A stretch of 64,000 nucleotides of DNA from positions 248,001 to 312,000 of the forward strand of contig NZ_AUFF01000002.1 in NCBI RefSeq assembly GCF_000426365.1, read 5' to 3'. Numbering within the stretch: the stretch's first letter is position 1; every line of letters starts with the position of its first letter. The stretch is from Arenimonas composti TR7-09 = DSM 18010. Lineage in GTDB: Bacteria > Pseudomonadota > Gammaproteobacteria > Xanthomonadales > Xanthomonadaceae. Shown here piece by piece: positions 29,169 to 36,156 of the stretch. The translations under genes were made by a program, and so were the position numbers. Below the pieces are notes generated by a model. The model was not told the DNA's origin, did no database searches, and saw only the letters and a program-made list of their open reading frames with translations.

Positions 29169-30419
29169 ATGGACGCGCCGCTGTTCCGCCCGCAGGTGCT
29201 GGAAGCGAAAGCCGAAACCGGGCTCGGCACGATCGCGCTCGGGCAGCCGCTGTCGCGCTGGCTGCTCGCCGCGTTCGCGCTGCTGGCGACGGCGGCGGTC
29301 GTGGTTTTCCTCGCCACCGCCGACTACAGCCGCCGCACCCGCGTCGCCGGCCAGCTGGTGCCGCGCGACGGCCTCGCCAGCGCGGTGTCGCCGGTCGCCG
29401 GCACCGTGCTGTCGCTGCGCGTGCGCGAAGGCGACGCCGTGCGCGCCGGCGACGTGCTCGCGATCGTCGCCACCAGCCGGGTCACCCGCCGCGACGGCGA
29501 CACCGCGCGCGTCGCCGAAACCGCCCTCGCCGAACGTCGCAGCGCGCTGGTCGCCGGTTACGCCGCGCAGCGCGCCCAGCTCGAGGCGCAGCGCGACGGC
29601 GTCACCGCCCAGCTGCAGGCGCTGGCACTCGAACTCGTCCAGGTCGACGCCGAACGCCTGACCCGCGCCCGCCAGCAGGAACTCGCCGAAGCGGCCCTCG
29701 ACCGCTATCGCGAGCTGCACGCGCGCCGCTTCGTCACCGCGCTCGAGCTGCAGCAGCGCGAGGCCGCGGCGCTGGAACAGCGCGCGCTCGCACAGGCGGC
29801 CGCACGCCAGCACGCGGCGCTGCGCCGGCAGCAGTCGCAGCTCACGCAGGCGCGCGACGAGATGCCGGCGCGGCTGGCGGCCCTTGACGCGGCGCAGCAG
29901 CGCGAACTCGCGGCGCTGGCGCAGGAAGCCGCCGACACCGCCGCCCGCGCCGAGGCGGTGATCGTCGCCGCCGCCGACGGCAGCATCGCCACGCGCCTGG
30001 TGGAACCGGGACAGGCGGTGCTGGCCGGGCAGCCGCTGCTGGCGCTGCTGCCGGCCGATGCGACCCTCGAGGCGCATCTGGCGGTGCCGAGCCGCGCGGT
30101 CGGCTTCGTGGCCCCCGGCGACCGCGTGCTGCTGCGTTACGACGCCTTCCCGTACCAGAAGTTCGGCCAGCATCCGGGCACCGTGCTGCGCGTCTCGCGC
30201 AGTGCTTCGGTGGGCGAGGGCGGCGATGGCGAGCCGCTGTACCGGGTAGTGGTGGCGCCGGCGCGGGCCGAGGTCGTCGCCTTCGGCCGCGGCGAACCGC
30301 TGCGCCCCGGCATGCGACTCGAAGCCGACCTGCTCGGCGAGCGCCGGCGCCTCTGGGAATGGCTGCTCGAACCGCTGCAGGCGCTCGACGGTGCCGTGCG
30401 CGAGCACGGGCGGGGCTGA
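29169..30419 (+). CDS. HlyD-family membrane-fusion protein for bacteriocin-type export
   Basis: A 416-aa periplasmic adaptor. One membrane helix lies at about residues 32-52, followed by a lipoyl/beta-barrel half (VSPVAGTVLSLRVREGDAVRAGD), a long coiled-coil hairpin (about 110-260, Ala/Gln/Arg-rich) and the second half. The late motif RYDAFPYQKFGQHPGTVLRVSRSA is characteristic of CvaA/RaxA-type adaptors working with C39-peptidase ABC exporters. It should link the inner-membrane exporter encoded 1 bp downstream to a TolC-type channel encoded elsewhere. The pair lies between ribB and ribH. ATG 29169 gives MDAPLFRPQVLEAK, a normal start for this family. Confidence 0.93.
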   Translation: MDAPLFRPQVLEAKAETGLGTIALGQPLSRWLLAAFALLATAAVVVFLATADYSRRTRVAGQLVPRDGLASAVSPVAGTVLSLRVREGDAVRAGDVLAIVATSRVTRRDGDTARVAETALAERRSALVAGYAAQRAQLEAQRDGVTAQLQALALELVQVDAERLTRARQQELAEAALDRYRELHARRFVTALELQQREAAALEQRALAQAAARQHAALRRQQSQLTQARDEMPARLAALDAAQQRELAALAQEAADTAARAEAVIVAAADGSIATRLVEPGQAVLAGQPLLALLPADATLEAHLAVPSRAVGFVAPGDRVLLRYDAFPYQKFGQHPGTVLRVSRSASVGEGGDGEPLYRVVVAPARAEVVAFGRGEPLRPGMRLEADLLGERRRLWEWLLEPLQALDGAVREHGRG

Positions 30420-30420
30420 C

Positions 30421-32550
30421 GTGGAAGCGATCCGGCAATCCGCGGTCGGCGAATGCGGCCTGGCCTGCCTGGCGATGGTCGCGGAACACCATGGCCACCG
30501 CATCGGCCTGCCGGCGCTGCGCCAGCGCTTCCCGCTGTCGCTGAAAGGCGCCTCGCTGGCGCGGCTGGTGGCGATCGCCGGCGCCCTCGGGCTGCAGGCG
30601 CGGGCGCTGCGGCTCGAGCCGGCGCAGCTGCGCGAGCTGAAGCTGCCATGCGTGCTGCACTGGAACCTCGACCATTACGTCGTGCTCGAGAAGGTCGGGC
30701 GGCGGGGGCTGCGCATCCTCGATCCGGCGCTCGGGCGCCGGCACGTGGATGCCGACGAAGTCGCGCGCCGCTTCACCGGCGTCGCGCTCGAACTCACGCC
30801 GGCCGCCGCCTTCGCGCCGCGCGCCGCGCCGCCGCCGCTGCGCCTGCGCCAGCTGCTCGGCCGCGTCGCCGGCGGCCTGCGCGCGCTCGGCCTGCTGCTG
30901 GCGCTGTCGCTGGCGCTGCAGGTGTTCGTTCTGCTGGCGCCGATGCAGCTGCAGTGGATCGTCGACCACGCCCTGGTCGCCGCCGACCGCGAACTGCTGG
31001 CGGTGATCGCGCTCGGTTTCGCGCTGCTGCTGGCGCTGCAGGTCGGCGTCGGCCTGTTGCGCGGCTGGACCCTGGTCGCGCTGGCGGCGGCGCTGGGCCG
31101 GCAGTGGACCGGCAACGTGCTCGCGCATGCGCTGCGGCTGCCGCTCGACTTCTTCCAGAAACGCCATCTCGGTGACGTCGTGTCGCGGCTCGGCGCGGTG
31201 CAGGCGATCCAGCGCACGCTCACCACCGGCTTCGTCGAGGCACTCGTGGACGGCGTGCTGGCCGTGGCGACGGCGACGATGATGCTGCTCTACAGCCCGA
31301 AACTCGCGGCGATAGGCTTCCTCGCCGTCGCGCTCTACCTGGCGGCGCGGATGACGGCCTTCCCGCACCTGCGCGAGGCCAACGAACGCCAGCTCGAGGC
31401 GGCGGCGAGCCAGCAGGGCCACCTGCTCGAATCGCTGCGCGGCATCCAGAGCCTGAAGGTCGCCGGCCAGGAGCCGGCACGCGCGGCGCAGTACCGCAGC
31501 CTGGTCGTCGACACCCTCAACCGCGAACTGCGGCTGGCGACCTTCGGGCTCGGCTTCTCCTCCGGCCAGCAGCTGCTGTTCGGCGGCGAACGCGTGCTGG
31601 TGATCTGGCTCGGCGCCGGCCTGGTGCTCGACGGCGGCTTCTCGGTCGGCATGCTGCTCGCGTACCTGGCGTGGAAGGACCAGTTCGCGGCGCGCACCGC
31701 GACCCTGGTCGACCGCCTGGTGGAACTGCGCATGCTGCGCCTGCACGGCGAGCGCCTGGCCGACATCGTGCTCGCGGAACCCGAGCACGACCCGGCGTCG
31801 GATTTCGAGCAGGCGCCGGCGTCGCTGCGCATCGAGGTGCGGGAGCTCGGCTTCCGCTACGCCGACGGCGAACCCTGGGTGCTGCGCGGCTGCAGCTTCC
31901 ATGTCGACGAGGGCGAGACGGTGGCGATCGTCGGTGCCTCCGGTGGCGGCAAGACGACGCTGCTGAAGCTCGTGCTCGGCCTGCTGTCGCCGGAGGAGGG
32001 GCGGGTCCTGGTCGGCGGCCGCGACCTGCGCCGGCTGGGCGCCCGCAACTTCCGCGCCCAGGTCGGCGTGGTGATGCAGGACGACCAGCTGTTCGCCGGT
32101 TCGATCGCCGACAACATCGCCCTCGGCGACGACCGCGTCGACATGGTCCGGGTCGAGGCCGCTGCCCGCGCCGCCGCGGTGCACGACGAGATCGCGGCGA
32201 TGCCGATGGGCTACCACAGCCTGATCGGCGACATGGGCAGCGCCCTCAGCGGCGGCCAGAAGCAGCGGGTGATCCTGGCGCGGGCGCTGTACCGGCAGCC
32301 GCGGCTGCTGGTGCTCGACGAGGCCACCAGCCACCTCGACGTCGGCAACGAGCAGCGGGTCAACGCGGCGATCCGGCAGCTGCGGATCGGCAAGCTGATC
32401 GTCGCCCACCGCCCGGAAACCATCGCCGCCGCCGACCGGGTGCTGGTGCTGCACGGCGGCCGGATCGTGCAGGAAGCCCGGCCCGGGCTGCCGCCGGGGC
32501 CGCCGGCCCGCGCCGCCCCGGAAGCCGCGAGCCCGGTCCCCACGGGGTAA
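30421..32550 (+). CDS. C39-peptidase ABC exporter for double-glycine-leader peptides
   Basis: A 709-aa bacteriocin-type exporter in three parts. The N-terminal C39 peptidase covers about residues 1-130, with Cys12 in [10 protein letters not shown], His85 in WNLDHYVVL and Asp101 in ILDPALG. Six membrane helices span about 145-430. The ATPase has Walker [10 protein letters not shown], signature ALSGGQKQR and Walker [13 protein letters not shown]. All three catalytic residues are present, so it should cut leaders after Gly-Gly and export the core. The GTG at 30421 follows the HlyD stop by 1 bp. A longer reading from 30391 would overlap hlyD. The obvious substrate is the peptide at 35362. Confidence 0.95.
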
Positions 32551-32553
32551 ACT
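32548..32553 (+). promoter_or_regulatory. candidate -10 element upstream of ribH
   Basis: TAAACT overlaps the exporter stop codon and lies 28 bp before the ribH ATG. The -35 region is not recognisable. With the hexamers before ribE and ribB it suggests separate transcription starts for rib genes that follow inserted DNA. Confidence 0.3.
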
Positions 32554-32581
32554 TGCGGCCCCTTCGTCCCCGCCCACCCCG

Positions 32582-33049
32582 ATGACCGACTACGCAGGCG
32601 ATGTCCGCAGCCCCGACGGGGCCCGCTACGCCATCGTCGCCAGCCGCTGGAACCCGCGCATCGTCGACGCCCTCGTCGACGGCGCCCGCCGTGCCTTCGC
32701 CGGCAACGGCGTGGCTGCCGACGCCGTCGACCTGATCCGGGTGCCCGGCGCCTGGGAGCTGCCGATGGCGGCCGCGCACGCGGTCGACCGCGGCCAGTAC
32801 GCCGGCATCGTCGCCCTCGGCTGCGTGGTCCGCGGCGACACCCGCCACTACGAACACGTCGCCGACGAATGCGCCCGCGGCCTGATGCGCGTCGCCCTGG
32901 ACACCGGCGTGCCGGTCGCCAACGGCGTGCTCGCGGTCGAGCGCCACGAGGACGCCGTCGCCCGCGCCGGTGGCGCCCACGGCAACAAGGGCGAGGAATG
33001 CGCCCTGGCCATCGTCGAGATGGCGAACCTGATCGGAAAACTCGCATGA
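32582..33049 (+). CDS. ribH: 6,7-dimethyl-8-ribityllumazine synthase
   Basis: A 155-aa lumazine synthase that condenses the RibB product with 5-amino-6-ribitylaminouracil. Family motifs are [20 protein letters not shown] (substrate loop), [15 protein letters not shown] and [17 protein letters not shown], the last with the catalytic His. The C-terminal [17 protein letters not shown] is also typical. It usually follows ribB directly; here an HlyD/ABC export pair intervenes. The stop overlaps the nusB ATG (ATGA). Confidence 0.97.
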
Positions 33050-33507
33050 AGCACGCCCGCCCCGACGGCATCGACCCGCACGCCCGTTCCCGCGCCCGCC
33101 GCCGCGCCCTGCAGGCGATCTACGCCTGGCAGCTGTCCGGCGCCGCGATCGCCAAGGTCATCGAGCAGTTCCGCAGCGAGCAGGACATGGAAGTGGCCGA
33201 CCTCGAGTATTTCGAGGACCTGGTGCGCGGCGTCGAGGCGAACCTCGGGGAACTGGACGCGAAGCTGGCCGGTTTCGTCGACCGCGACATCGCCCAGGTC
33301 GATCCGATCGAGCGCGCGGTGCTGCGCATCGCCGCCTACGAACTGCTGCACCGCCCCGACGTGCCCTACCGGGTGGTGATCAACGAGGCGATCGAAACCA
33401 CCAAGCGCTTCGGCAGCGAGCACGGCCACACCTACGTCAACGGCGTGCTCGACCACGCCGCGGCGCAGTGGCGCGCCGCCGAGGCACAGGCCGCCCGCCA
33501 GCGCTGA
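33046..33507 (+). CDS. nusB: transcription antitermination protein NusB
   Basis: A 153-aa all-helical RNA-binding protein that joins the rRNA antitermination complex with NusE at boxA. Recognisable segments are [36 protein letters not shown] and [31 protein letters not shown]. Length is a little above the usual 140 aa owing to an N-terminal extension before the RSRAR motif. The ATGA overlaps with ribH and the shared base with thiL indicate one transcript. Confidence 0.97.
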
Positions 33508-34481
33508 TGGCCGGCGAGTTCGCGCTGATCGACCGGATCCGCGCGCGCGCCCGCTCCCGCGCCGACGTCGTGCTCGGCATCGGCGACGATGCCGCCCTGC
33601 TGGCGGTACCGCCCGGCCAGCAGCTCGTCGTCACCACCGACACCCTCGTCGCCGGCGTGCACTGGCCGGACGGCACCGCCCCCGCCGACATCGGCTGGAA
33701 GGCGCTGGCGGTGAACCTCAGCGATCTCGCGGCGATGGCCGCCACGCCGGCCTGGGTGACGCTGGCGCTGACGCTGCCGTTCGCGAGCGCGGAGGAACGC
33801 AGCGCTTTCGTCGACGGTTTCCTCGACGGCTTCTGCGAGCTCGCCGACGAACACGACGTCGCGCTGGTCGGCGGCGACACGACGTCCGGCCCGCTGGCCG
33901 TCACCGTGACCGCGCACGGGCTGGTGGCGCCGGGCGCGGCGCTGCACCGCGACGCCGCCCGCCCCGGCGACGACGTGTGGGTCACCGGCACCCTCGGCGA
34001 CGCCGCCGGCGCGCTGGCGCAGTGGCGGGCGCGCGGGCCGTTCTCGGCCAAGCTGCGCTACCGGCTGGACCGGCCGACGCCGCGCCTGGCGGTCGCCGCC
34101 GCGCTGCGCGGCCTCGCCCGCGCTGCGGTCGACGTCAGCGACGGCCTGCTCGCCGACCTCGGCCACGTGCTCGCCGCCAGCGGCGGCCTCGGCGCCGCGC
34201 TCGAGCTCGGCCGGCTGCCGACCTCGCGCACGCTCGCCGACCACTTCGCCGACGAGCGGGCGCGCTGGCCGCTGCAGCTTTCCGGCGGCGACGACTACGA
34301 ACTGTGCTTCACCGCCGCGCCGGCCGACGCGCTGGCGATCGAGATGGCGCTCGACGCCGCCGGCTGCGGCGCCGCGGTGATCGGGCGGATCACCGCCGAG
34401 CCCGGTATCCGCCTGACCACGCCGGAGGGCGAGGCCTGGGTGCCCGGGGCCGCGGGATACGAACATTTCGGGCGGGCGTAG
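33507..34481 (+). CDS. thiL: thiamine-monophosphate kinase
   Basis: ThiL (324 aa) phosphorylates thiamine monophosphate to the active diphosphate. Typical motifs are FALIDRIRAR, DVVLGIGDDAALL, VVTTDTLVAGVHW, WKALAVNLSDLAAMAATP, LVGGDTTSGPLAVTV and SGGDDYELCFT. Length is normal. ATG 33507 shares its first base with the nusB stop; the longer reading from 33468 lies inside nusB. The following gap to pgpA carries a short tandem repeat. Confidence 0.97.
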   Translation: MAGEFALIDRIRARARSRADVVLGIGDDAALLAVPPGQQLVVTTDTLVAGVHWPDGTAPADIGWKALAVNLSDLAAMAATPAWVTLALTLPFASAEERSAFVDGFLDGFCELADEHDVALVGGDTTSGPLAVTVTAHGLVAPGAALHRDAARPGDDVWVTGTLGDAAGALAQWRARGPFSAKLRYRLDRPTPRLAVAAALRGLARAAVDVSDGLLADLGHVLAASGGLGAALELGRLPTSRTLADHFADERARWPLQLSGGDDYELCFTAAPADALAIEMALDAAGCGAAVIGRITAEPGIRLTTPEGEAWVPGAAGYEHFGRA

Positions 34482-34494
34482 TTCGAATTCTTTG

Positions 34495-34532
34495 CCACGG
34501 ATGAACACGGACGAGCCCGGATGAACACGGAT
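34495..34532. repeat. short tandem repeat, GGATGAACACGGA type
   Basis: Two copies of CGGATGAACACGGA separated by CGAGCCC lie between thiL and pgpA. Similar strings are frequent between genes in related bacteria (recalled, not searched). No function is proposed. Confidence 0.6.
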
Positions 34533-34558
34533 AGAGCTTTCGGTTCGGAGCGCGACGC

Positions 34559-35059
34559 ATGGCGCTGATGCCGACGGGGACGCGGCGGAAGCTGATGAGG
34601 CATCCGCTGGGCTGGATCGCCGCCGGGTTCGGGGCGGGGTTTTCGCCGTGGGCGCCGGGGACGGTCGGCAGTCTCGCGGCGCTCGTTCCGTGGTGGTTCC
34701 TGCTGCGCGACCTGTCGCTGCCGGTGTATCTGGCGGTGCTGGTGGCGACGTTCGTCCTCGGCTGCTGGGCGGCGCACTGGACGATCCGCAGGACCGGCAT
34801 CGAGGACCCGTCGGTCGTCGTCTGGGACGAATACGTCGGCATGTGGATCGCGCTGATCCTGCTGCCCGCCGGCTGGCCCTGGGTGGTCGCGGCGTTCGCG
34901 CTGTTCCGGCTGTTCGACATCTGGAAGCCGTGGCCGGTGAGCTGGGCCGATTCGAAGCTGCACGGCGGCTTCGGCGCGATGCTCGACGACGCCTTCGCCG
35001 GCCTCTGGGCGCTGGCCCTGCTGCAACTCGGCGCCTGGCTCCTCTCCCGCTTCTCGTAG
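34559..35059 (+). CDS. pgpA: phosphatidylglycerophosphatase A
   Basis: A 166-aa membrane phosphatase converting phosphatidylglycerophosphate to phosphatidylglycerol. PF04608 family motifs are GFGAGFSPWAPGTVGSLAAL, VVWDEYVGMWIAL, FRLFDIWKPWPVSWADSKLHGGFGAMLDDAFAGL. About four membrane helices are visible. ATG 34559 was taken; ATG 34568 (MPTGTRRKLM) is equally possible. It closes the nusB-thiL-pgpA run, which is a standard order, and is followed by a block of repeats. Confidence 0.95.
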   Translation: MALMPTGTRRKLMRHPLGWIAAGFGAGFSPWAPGTVGSLAALVPWWFLLRDLSLPVYLAVLVATFVLGCWAAHWTIRRTGIEDPSVVVWDEYVGMWIALILLPAGWPWVVAAFALFRLFDIWKPWPVSWADSKLHGGFGAMLDDAFAGLWALALLQLGAWLLSRFS

Positions 35060-35235
35060 GAGCGGCTTCAGCCCCCCCGCTTCTTGTGGGAGCGGCTTCA
35101 GCCGCGATGAGCGAGAAACGAGGAACGAGAAACGAGGGACGAGGAACGAGGAACGAGGAACGAGTGAGGGCCCGCGCCGGGGCGCGGGCGCGCTTCGCGC
35201 GAGTGGGGAGGGATCGCGGCTGAAGCCGCTCCTAC
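35056..35235. repeat. composite repeat block: REP units plus AACGAGN heptads
   Basis: Two direct REP-like units (35056-35073, truncated; 35086-35108) open the block. They are followed by about eight AACGAGN heptads (35111-35166), a GC-rich hairpin (GGGCCCGCGCC...GGCGCGGGC, then GCGCGCTTCGCGCG) and an inverted REP unit at 35213-35235. It overlaps the pgpA stop region. The same hairpin core recurs, inverted, at 38735-38770. Confidence 0.88.
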
Positions 35236-35306
35236 GCGCGTTCCGCGCGGCGTTGTAGGAAATCGCCGCGACCCCGCGAGCACCCCTTGATTCCGACCCG
35301 GGTAAT

Positions 35307-35340
35307 CAGGGTCTGCTGACCCTGCCCGCAATACCGCGGG
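35307..35340 (+). promoter_or_regulatory. two adjacent short hairpins in the leader of the double-glycine peptide gene
   Basis: CAGGGTC-TGCT-GACCCTG (35307-35324) is followed at once by CCCGC-AATACC-GCGGG (35325-35340). The ribosome binding site AGGGAG (35349-35354) and ATG 35362 come next. No T-run follows, so these are not a classical terminator. They may be a leader structure or part of an operator (inference). No promoter with both hexamers was found in 35236-35306. Confidence 0.45.
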
Positions 35341-35361
35341 TGCACACCAGGGAGTGGTGTC

Positions 35362-35583
35362 ATGCGTGAACTCACCCAGATGGAACTGGAGATGGTGGAG
35401 GGCGGCAATGCGGCGCTGGTGCCGGTGATCATCGGAATCATCGTGCTCGCCGGCGTGGCGGTGGCCGCGTACGCGGTGGCGAACGAATGCGACGTCAGCT
35501 TCGAGGTCGGCGTCGACGGCATGTCGTTCGAGATCGACTGCAGCGGCAACCCCGACCCCACCGCCACCTGCCCCGGCGGCTGA
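35362..35583 (+). CDS. double-glycine-leader peptide, bacteriocin-like precursor
   Basis: A 73-aa precursor. The leader MRELTQMELEMVEGG fits the double-glycine consensus exactly: Leu -12, Thr -11, Glu -8, Leu -7, Val -4, Gly-Gly -2/-1. The 58-residue core has a hydrophobic, Gly/Ala-rich segment (about residues 17-40) with GxxxG-like spacing and then an acidic tail with Cys43, Cys60 and Cys70. The parts CDVSFEV and MSFEIDC are near mirror images. It has a good ribosome binding site (AGGGAG, 7 bp spacing). The C39 exporter at 30421 is the probable processing and export machine. It could be a class II-type bacteriocin, a toxin or a signal. Confidence 0.85.
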   Translation: MRELTQMELEMVEGGNAALVPVIIGIIVLAGVAVAAYAVANECDVSFEVGVDGMSFEIDCSGNPDPTATCPGG

Positions 35584-35637
35584 GCCGCCCTGGCGTCGGC
35601 TGCGTCCGCGCAGCCGGCGCCCACCGGAGGAAAGCCC

Positions 35638-36156
35638 ATGCGTCGTCTTCTCCGACATCCTGAAACCGCCGGTCTGCTGCTCGGCCTGTCCGACGTGATT
35701 TTCCGCGCGCTCGCCGCGGCGACGTGGCCACCGTCCGGCGGCCGCCTGTTCGGACGCTTCTTCCTCGCAAACGTGCACCACCGTGTCGAGAAGCGCGCGT
35801 TTGGCCTCGACAGTCTCGAGTGGTTCGGCATCGCCGCGGTCGTGGTGGTACTGATGTACGGCGGCGTGCGCCTGTGCAGCCACGTCGCCCATCGCGATTA
35901 CGCCGGCTACCGGCTCGCGCGCTTCGCGGTCGCGGCGATGGCTGGCGTGCTGATGCTGAACACCGCCGAGGCCCTGCTCACCGGCAAGGTCACCGACTGG
36001 TTCGGGCTGGTTCATGGCAACGGCGGAAAGGCGCTCAACCTGGGCGACCTCGTTGCCTGGACGGCCGCGGTACTGGTGCCGGGCGGAATCTTCGCCGGAG
36101 TGATCGGCTACCTGCGCGACCCCGCGAAGTACGTGCCTGGGGCTCAGCCTGGCTGA
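35638..36156 (+). CDS. signal peptidase II (LspA)-like membrane protein linked to the double-glycine peptide
   Basis: A 172-aa protein with about four membrane helices. The order of conserved elements follows LspA: D19-x3-R23 in the first helix, Asn45 in the loop where LspA has NxGxAF, then N108-x2-E111 before G116-K-V-T-D120 and N134-L-G-D137. Asp120 and Asp137 occupy the positions of the catalytic aspartates. The Arg after the Asp/Glu of the third motif is replaced by Ala112, and overall sequence is divergent, so it is unlikely to be the housekeeping enzyme. It lies 54 bp after the peptide gene and may process, export or neutralise it (inference). The stop overlaps the convergent UDG gene by 13 bp. 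Confidence 0.7.
   Translation: MRRLLRHPETAGLLLGLSDVIFRALAAATWPPSGGRLFGRFFLANVHHRVEKRAFGLDSLEWFGIAAVVVVLMYGGVRLCSHVAHRDYAGYRLARFAVAAMAGVLMLNTAEALLTGKVTDWFGLVHGNGGKALNLGDLVAWTAAVLVPGGIFAGVIGYLRDPAKYVPGAQPG

Follow-up and report, generated by a model that had tools for sequence, protein, structure and literature searches.

In a window of 64,000 nucleotides from Arenimonas composti TR7-09 = DSM 18010 (family Xanthomonadaceae; RefSeq assembly GCF_000426365.1, contig NZ_AUFF01000002.1, positions 248,001 to 312,000 of the forward strand), we analyzed a split locus for peptide export in which a double-glycine (GG) precursor peptide is followed by a membrane protein resembling the signal peptidase II LspA. 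Coordinates given without a locus handle are those of the window. A preliminary description, made from the sequence of the window alone, had placed four open reading frames (ORFs) here, for an HlyD adaptor, a C39 exporter, a GG peptide and a protein of 172 aa, and all four were found at those positions. The features of the locus are as follows:

29169..30419, forward strand: HlyD-type periplasmic adaptor of 416 aa (Pfam HlyD_3, 2.6e-19)
30421..32550, forward strand: C39-peptidase ABC exporter, PCAT (Pfam Peptidase_C39, 2e-32; ABC_membrane; ABC_tran)
35362..35583, forward strand: double-glycine precursor peptide of 73 aa (TIGR03949 above cut-off)
35638..36156, forward strand: LspA-superfamily four-helix membrane protein of 172 aa, proposed immunity protein (homology, motif losses, helix count)
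35060..36156, no strand: cargo slot, from pgpA to a reverse-strand uracil-DNA-glycosylase-family (UDG) gene, where GG-peptide cassettes lie in Arenimonas

The exporter contains the C39, ABC membrane and ATPase domains and thus qualifies as a C39 ABC exporter. Its catalytic triad is intact (Cys12, His85 and Asp101, numbered from the GTG at 30421), with spacings of 73 and 16 residues equal to those of the CvaB triad (Cys32/His105/Asp121; PMC9746304). No other C39 gene was found in the genome (3.16 Mb, 29 contigs). The peptide gene lies around 3 kb downstream of the exporter, with ribH, nusB, thiL and pgpA in between. The names pgpA and UDG were assigned by Pfam match; those of the rib genes, nusB and thiL, and of the FAD oxidase and malic enzyme mentioned below, are presumed, some of them after the preliminary description. 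Shine-Dalgarno-like sequences were seen by eye in front of both the peptide and the LspA-like genes.

The precursor peptide displays the GG leader of class II microcins (MRELTQMELEMVEGG, of the type MREL...GG), followed by a core of 58 aa starting with N; across the peptide family, core length ranged from 48 to 58 aa. One hydrophobic helix containing Gly (residues 17-35) and two invariant Cys (43 and 60), which probably form a disulfide, were recognized in the peptide, together with a third Cys (70) that is not conserved. The match to NCBIfam TIGR03949, the lactobin A/cerein 7B family (24.7 bits; cut-off 21.5), was scored for the window peptide only and spans residues 3-37, corresponding to the leader and the start of the core. 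No lipobox was found at the two conserved Cys in any of the six intact peptides of the family, and the peptide of genome G116 contained one lipobox-like string, at an extra Cys within the helix. Here and below G numbers denote genomes and L numbers loci, G000 being the genome of the window, G121 A. terrae R29 and G299 A. daejeonensis KACC 14631.

Searched alone, the 172-aa protein of the window gave no Pfam or NCBIfam match at E ≤ 10. The family assembled around it has eight members (window, A. terrae, A. daejeonensis, G116 copy 1, G116 copy 2, G155, G872, and G880), seven of which individually matched Pfam Peptidase_A8 (PF01252) at E ≤ 10, with a best value of 6.6e-8; the protein of the window was the one without a match. 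A profile of the eight members compared with all PDB chain sequences gave one match at E ≤ 1, S. aureus LspA (6ryo; E = 6e-8), and the similarity covered profile positions 11-154. By hhalign, the score against 29 canonical LspA stretches from the bacterial family of the window (29 of 30 loci yielded a usable stretch) was 29.2 (P = 7e-4); 20 shuffles of the columns gave no score above 20.0, and PgpA scored 14.4. A six-member profile was also run on 369 genomes of the class, where each of the nine matches outside the genome of the window carried the motifs of canonical LspA; in this search, and in that of 395 family genomes reported below, at most nine first-look candidates per genome were scored, and members may be missed. 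Four hydrophobic helices were present in 8/8 members of the LspA-like family, and four membrane helices are described for LspA (PMC6952399). Elsewhere in the genome of the window a canonical LspA is encoded (G000:C4), in which three helices were counted, as the stretch was cut out without the first one. Neither the protein of the window nor any of the eight members matched PF02517 (Abi/CPBP). On the evidence of these profiles the 172-aa protein is assigned to the LspA superfamily, and the label "LspA-like", given in the preliminary description from a single sequence, proved right.

The residues on which LspA activity depends were partly eroded in this family. S. aureus LspA has 14 highly conserved residues, and its activity is reported as 0% in D118N, D136N, and R110A and as 50% in R110K (PMC6952399). 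Taking the members in the order listed above, the equivalent of D118 (window Asp120) reads D,N,N,D,E,D,D,D, and the R110 position is occupied by A,S,S,W,T,Y,A,K, with Arg in 0/8 and Lys in G880. The equivalents of D136 (window Asp137) and N133 (window Asn134) are Asp and Asn in all eight members, that of D109 (the Asp of NxxDR) is Glu in all eight, and that of K25 is Arg in all eight. In the NxG motif, examined in six members, the G54 equivalent was never Gly, and the N52 equivalent was Asn in two. Canonical motifs were kept in 29/29 of the LspA stretches examined. The window protein has both catalytic Asp, and the dyad is incomplete in three members (one G116 copy, A. terrae and A. daejeonensis). 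The two positions whose conservation the preliminary description had singled out for a check both map to the LspA dyad, Asp137 being constant and Asp120 kept in five of the eight members. The Arg110 and NxG combination of a functional signal peptidase II is absent from the LspA-like family, and these motif losses rule out that the gene is an ordinary second LspA.

The same residues bear on whether the LspA-like protein is a maturation protease which, after cleavage by the C39 domain, makes a second cut within or beside the peptide helix, as LspA does on prolipoproteins. Its homology to LspA, the constant Asp137 and Asn134 equivalents, the Asp120 equivalent retained in five members including that of the window, and a strict pairing with one peptide family are all in line with such a role. 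However, A. terrae and A. daejeonensis have Asn, and one G116 copy has Glu, in place of the first Asp though the peptide genes are intact, no member has Arg at the Arg110 position, no lipobox stands at a conserved Cys, and LspA activity is abolished by D118N, D136N and R110A (PMC6952399). Besides, in G155 the LspA-like frame is intact beside a broken peptide. We consider maturation unlikely, because some members have lost catalytic residues and a conserved lipobox is missing.

Occurrence of the LspA-like gene and the peptide was linked. Within Arenimonas, the LspA-like profile found the gene in 4/27 genomes, and the peptide profile gave hits at E < 1e-30 in the same four; G307 matched it only weakly (E 0.06). 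Across the order (299 genomes), BLAST with a single protein located the LspA-like gene in three, all Arenimonas, and the peptide profile returned the same three as strong matches together with 13 weak ones (E 1e-5 to 0.05), of which two, those in G155 and G245, were examined further. G155, from a second genus of the family, was reached through its weak peptide match and had been missed by single-protein BLAST; G245 presented other GG peptides and no LspA-like gene in the 18 kb examined. Extending the LspA-like profile to 395 genomes of the family gave seven genomes from 2/54 genera, and in 7/7 loci (window, A. terrae, A. daejeonensis, G116, G155, G872, and G880) the LspA-like gene directly follows a member of the peptide family. 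Thus, the pair of small genes is adjacent and in the same order in six loci besides the window, one of them with a decayed peptide: in G155 the helix and the C-terminal part lie in different frames, the leader is absent from both, and the LspA-like frame is open. In G116, two tandem LspA-like genes stand behind one peptide (L005:923-2001, reverse strand), the second copy with Glu at the first catalytic Asp. Two chromosomal sites were observed: in Arenimonas the pair lies between pgpA and the UDG gene, and in the second genus (G155, G872, and G880) it follows a gene resembling that of malic enzyme. Between A. terrae and A. daejeonensis, identity was lower for the LspA-like protein (62%) and the peptide (72%) than for PgpA (86%), and a dN/dS of around 0.28 indicated that the LspA-like gene is still under purifying selection. 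No relatives of the LspA-like protein appeared among 72,556 plasmid records (phage records lay outside this search), and a search of genome contigs with a single LspA-like protein found no related loci. In the genomes searched, peptide and LspA-like gene always occurred together, as the preliminary description had proposed to check, with the decayed peptide of G155 as the exception.

GG-leader peptides can be signals, and the peptide could accordingly be regarded as a pheromone with the LspA-like protein as its membrane receptor or processing protein. The NCBIfam match of the window peptide to the peptide pheromone VP1 is weak (E 0.024; 14.9 bits, where the cut-off is 85), and a signal would fit poorly with the patchy occurrence (4/27 genomes of the genus and 7/395 of the family), with a divergence faster than that of PgpA, with the tandem LspA-like copy in G116 and with a slot shared with other bacteriocin-like cassettes. 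We hold this reading to be improbable, although the neighbouring genes were annotated in part and a regulator may lie among them.

The position of the transport genes with respect to the pair varied among species. A. terrae has all four side by side between pgpA and the UDG gene, in the order HlyD, peptide, LspA-like and C39, whereas in the window and in A. daejeonensis HlyD and C39 lie between ribAB and ribH and the peptide/LspA-like pair after pgpA; in G116, HlyD and C39 are located past the FAD-oxidase gene. A C39 gene was found in 10/27 Arenimonas genomes and was of the window type in nine of them (the window itself or 59-68% identity), G304 having only a divergent C39 (33% identity). HlyD homologues, 46-56% identical, adjoin C39 or lie within around 1 kb of it in the eight other Arenimonas genomes with the window-type exporter. 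Among the genomes with the peptide/LspA-like pair, the four from Arenimonas have both a PCAT and an adaptor, and G155 has a C39 gene elsewhere.

The gap between pgpA and the UDG gene was then compared across the genus, pgpA being found in 25/27 genomes (G302 and G317 each have an additional, weaker copy that the count leaves aside). The slot was visible in eight of the nine genomes with a window-type exporter, as the contig of G309 ends before it, and it held a GG-peptide cassette in 8/8, containing the LspA-like gene in G000, G121, G299 and G116 and a different three-gene cassette in G262, G315, G303 and G307. Among the other 17 genomes with pgpA, 12 (including G304) presented a gap of 12-203 bases to the UDG or the FAD-oxidase gene; no GG gene was recognized in the longer gaps of G316 (713 bases) and G311 (980 bases), and the slot is undefined in G300, G314 and G317, where neither neighbour gene follows pgpA closely. 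In all, no double-glycine cassette was recognized in the 14 syntenic genomes with short or longer gaps. The pgpA-UDG gap of Arenimonas is a cargo slot for double-glycine cassettes. The split locus of the preliminary description is borne out by the contiguous arrangement in A. terrae and by the loaded slot in 8/8 exporter genomes.

A palindromic repeat, GTAGGAGCGGCTTCAGCCGCGA, was also observed in this region, with 10 copies in the window (at most three mismatches) and none in 100 shuffles. Its sites are 35056-35107, 35214-35235, 1510, 12546, 12586, 38707, 41480, 41535 and 41562, and three copies sit between pgpA and the peptide gene. Outside its own genome, an exact copy occurred at one other locus only (L075) among the loci examined.

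That the pair is an accidental neighbourhood, in which an orphan GG peptide lies next to an unrelated membrane protein and the exporter serves something else, could be suggested by the 3 kb and the ribH-nusB-thiL-pgpA genes that separate the exporter of the window from the peptide. Yet the same pair was found at seven loci in two genera and at two sites, in A. terrae it is contiguous with the exporter, and exporter presence and slot occupancy coincide. We give this explanation hardly any credence.

The second type of cassette, found in the slot and also in an island of G155, consists of a GG peptide alpha, a GG peptide beta and a third, small hydrophobic protein without leader, with which these cassettes end. 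It was located as follows:

L100:2262-2862: second cassette type
L101:~2284-2908: second cassette type
L103:~2171-2793: second cassette type
L108, reverse strand: second cassette type
L044:10557-11132: second cassette type

The core of the alpha peptide ends in ...R..L..I......L..EC, and the third protein resembles this core in each of five genomes, with alignment scores of 54-77 that none of 1000 shuffles reached; judging from this likeness, the third protein may give immunity by mimicking the peptide. In G880, a leaderless small protein like the third protein of the alpha type (L133:36-215, reverse strand; ending ...ALAKECR) follows the LspA-like gene, and the 2.2 kb listed there showed neither an alpha nor a beta peptide. 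The island of G155 contains, beside the decayed peptide and the LspA-like gene, an Rce1-like/CPBP membrane protease (L044:7984-8886, reverse strand; PF02517, 1.4e-10), from a superfamily that includes known immunity proteins, as well as a further ORF of 92 aa with a GG leader (L044:9807-10085) to which no partner was assigned. In A. daejeonensis the stretch between ribAB and HlyD (L043:13635-14437) holds two additional peptides with GG leaders, along with a small hydrophobic ORF; in this record C39, ribAB, ribE and the FAD oxidase are split between frames, perhaps by assembly indels.

Taken together, the locus probably encodes a class II microcin-like bacteriocin system, divided between an exporter and an exchangeable cargo and with an immunity protein of the LspA family, as far as can be judged from sequence. 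According to this model, the C39 domain would cut the 73-aa peptide after its GG leader, as expected from the family, and the core would be exported by the C39 ABC protein and the HlyD adaptor encoded 3 kb upstream. The released core would insert into the inner membrane of sensitive relatives, the producer being protected from its own peptide by the LspA-like protein. LspA is proposed to take up the helix of a signal peptide among its own membrane helices (PMC6952399), and the LspA-like protein most likely would hold the peptide helix in the groove where LspA would hold that of the signal peptide. Cleavage of the peptide may accompany binding in the members with two Asp, that of the window included. 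The partnership probably does not depend on it, since the proteins of two species correspond to D118N, an inactive mutant of LspA.

Of the three roles put forward in the preliminary description, immunity appears the most likely, because of the position of the gene, its constant pairing with the peptide, its intact frame beside a decayed peptide, its membrane nature and its faster divergence than PgpA; the duplication in G116 was also counted as a mark of an immunity protein, and the partial loss of catalytic residues was taken in its favour. The other cassettes of the slot also close with a small hydrophobic protein, and SkkI, PlnI and PlnL set a precedent for immunity proteins from a membrane-protease family (PMC8538875). 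Maturation is disfavoured for the reasons given above, and lipid-linked release is unsupported because no lipobox occurs at the two conserved Cys in 6/6 intact peptides.

A bolder proposal, to which we assign a low probability, is that the peptide, made on ribosomes, would inhibit the essential LspA of competitors and that the LspA-like protein would act in the producer as a target-mimic decoy binding it. This is proposed because a helix closely followed by a membrane-surface Cys looks like a prolipoprotein where LspA cuts it. The LspA copies of the globomycin and myxovirescin clusters would be an analogue (PMC9943842). The eroded substrate-site residues speak against a faithful decoy of LspA; in GlobF of the globomycin cluster, 14 residues are kept.

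Several observations weigh against a bacteriocin with an LspA-family immunity protein. The hhalign probability against the family LspA stretches was just 26.5, and the AlphaFold model of the window protein with two relatives was unusable (mean pLDDT 44; pTM 0.30), so the LspA fold is deduced from sequence. Asp at the D136 position in 8/8 members and at the D118 position in five of them is a pattern of conservation beyond the needs of a pure binder, and catalysis may take place in the Asp-Asp members, that of the window among them. The peptide scored below the cut-offs of Pfam Bacteriocin_IIc (18.4; cut-off 27.1) and MccV (17.4; cut-off 27). The exporter check covered four Arenimonas genomes and G155 out of the seven genomes with the LspA-like gene. 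Support in the trees was too low for an exchange of cassettes to be recognized (1/7 inner branches well supported for the exporter, 10 rows, and 3/18 for PgpA, 21 rows). Genomes from a single genus do not count as independent, hence no probability is attached to the coincidence of exporter and loaded slot. Finally, no known LspA-like immunity protein was found.

If the favoured interpretation holds, LspA, an aspartic peptidase, would be the second membrane-protease superfamily recruited for the self-protection of bacteriocin producers, beside Abi/CPBP. In one small gene, the family also offers natural variants that range from an intact catalytic dyad to a broken one, by which binding and cutting could be separated experimentally, and split systems could be found through the pgpA-UDG slot of Arenimonas genomes whose exporter lies within the rib operon or close to it. 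Should the target of the peptide be LspA, it would provide a ribosomal lead against an essential Gram-negative enzyme, as a gene-encoded counterpart of globomycin and myxovirescin. The statement in the preliminary description that no described system pairs an LspA-fold protein with a double-glycine peptide was not contradicted, since among the matches listed for open-licence PMC papers no title or abstract opening makes that pairing; in those listed for Arenimonas with bacteriocin, neither term was in title or abstract.

As compared with LspA itself (PF01252; 6ryo/6ryp), the LspA-like family shares sequence homology, four hydrophobic helices, a long loop after helix 1 and alignable dyad positions, but differs in having lost the essential Arg (0/8), the Gly of NxG (6/6 examined) and the Asp of NxxDR (Glu in 8/8), in the lack of conservation of the first Asp, and in a gene that is paired with a GG peptide and additional to the ordinary LspA of the genome. 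SkkI, PlnI and PlnL are immunity proteins of the Abi/CPBP membrane-protease family for which proteolysis has been suggested (PMC8538875); in both cases a protein of a membrane-protease superfamily accompanies a bacteriocin, a proposed one in Arenimonas, whereas Abi/CPBP are metalloproteases (PF02517) and the LspA-like protein belongs to an aspartic-peptidase family with catalytic residues partly lost. Extra copies of LspA are encoded in the clusters of globomycin (GlobF) and myxovirescin (LspA3, LspA4), with a proposed role in self-resistance (PMC9943842). Here too an LspA relative is encoded with a putative antibacterial, but in GlobF all 14 conserved residues are present and LspA is the target of the antibiotic, in contrast with the eroded LspA-like protein of Arenimonas and its ribosomal peptide. 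The Cdz system of Caulobacter (CdzC/CdzD, CdzI) comprises glycine-zipper hydrophobic bacteriocins, type I secretion and a small transmembrane immunity protein (PMC5380434). By description it resembles the Arenimonas system in its small hydrophobic Gram-negative bacteriocins, mode of secretion and type of immunity protein, whereas Arenimonas has one peptide with two conserved Cys, and CdzI is not called LspA-like in the portion of that source available (PMC5380434). The class II microcins of Enterobacterales comprise a precursor, an immunity protein, a PCAT, an adaptor and TolC (PMC9746304). With these microcins the Arenimonas system shares the GG leader, the C39 exporter with its triad, the HlyD adaptor and a small membrane protein behind the peptide; it differs in a core of just 48-58 aa, in a taxon outside Enterobacterales and in the location of the exporter, which is apart from the peptide in 3/4 Arenimonas genomes with the pair. 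The parts are thus of known kinds, and an LspA-family partner together with a distant cargo slot is, as far as seen, new as a combination.

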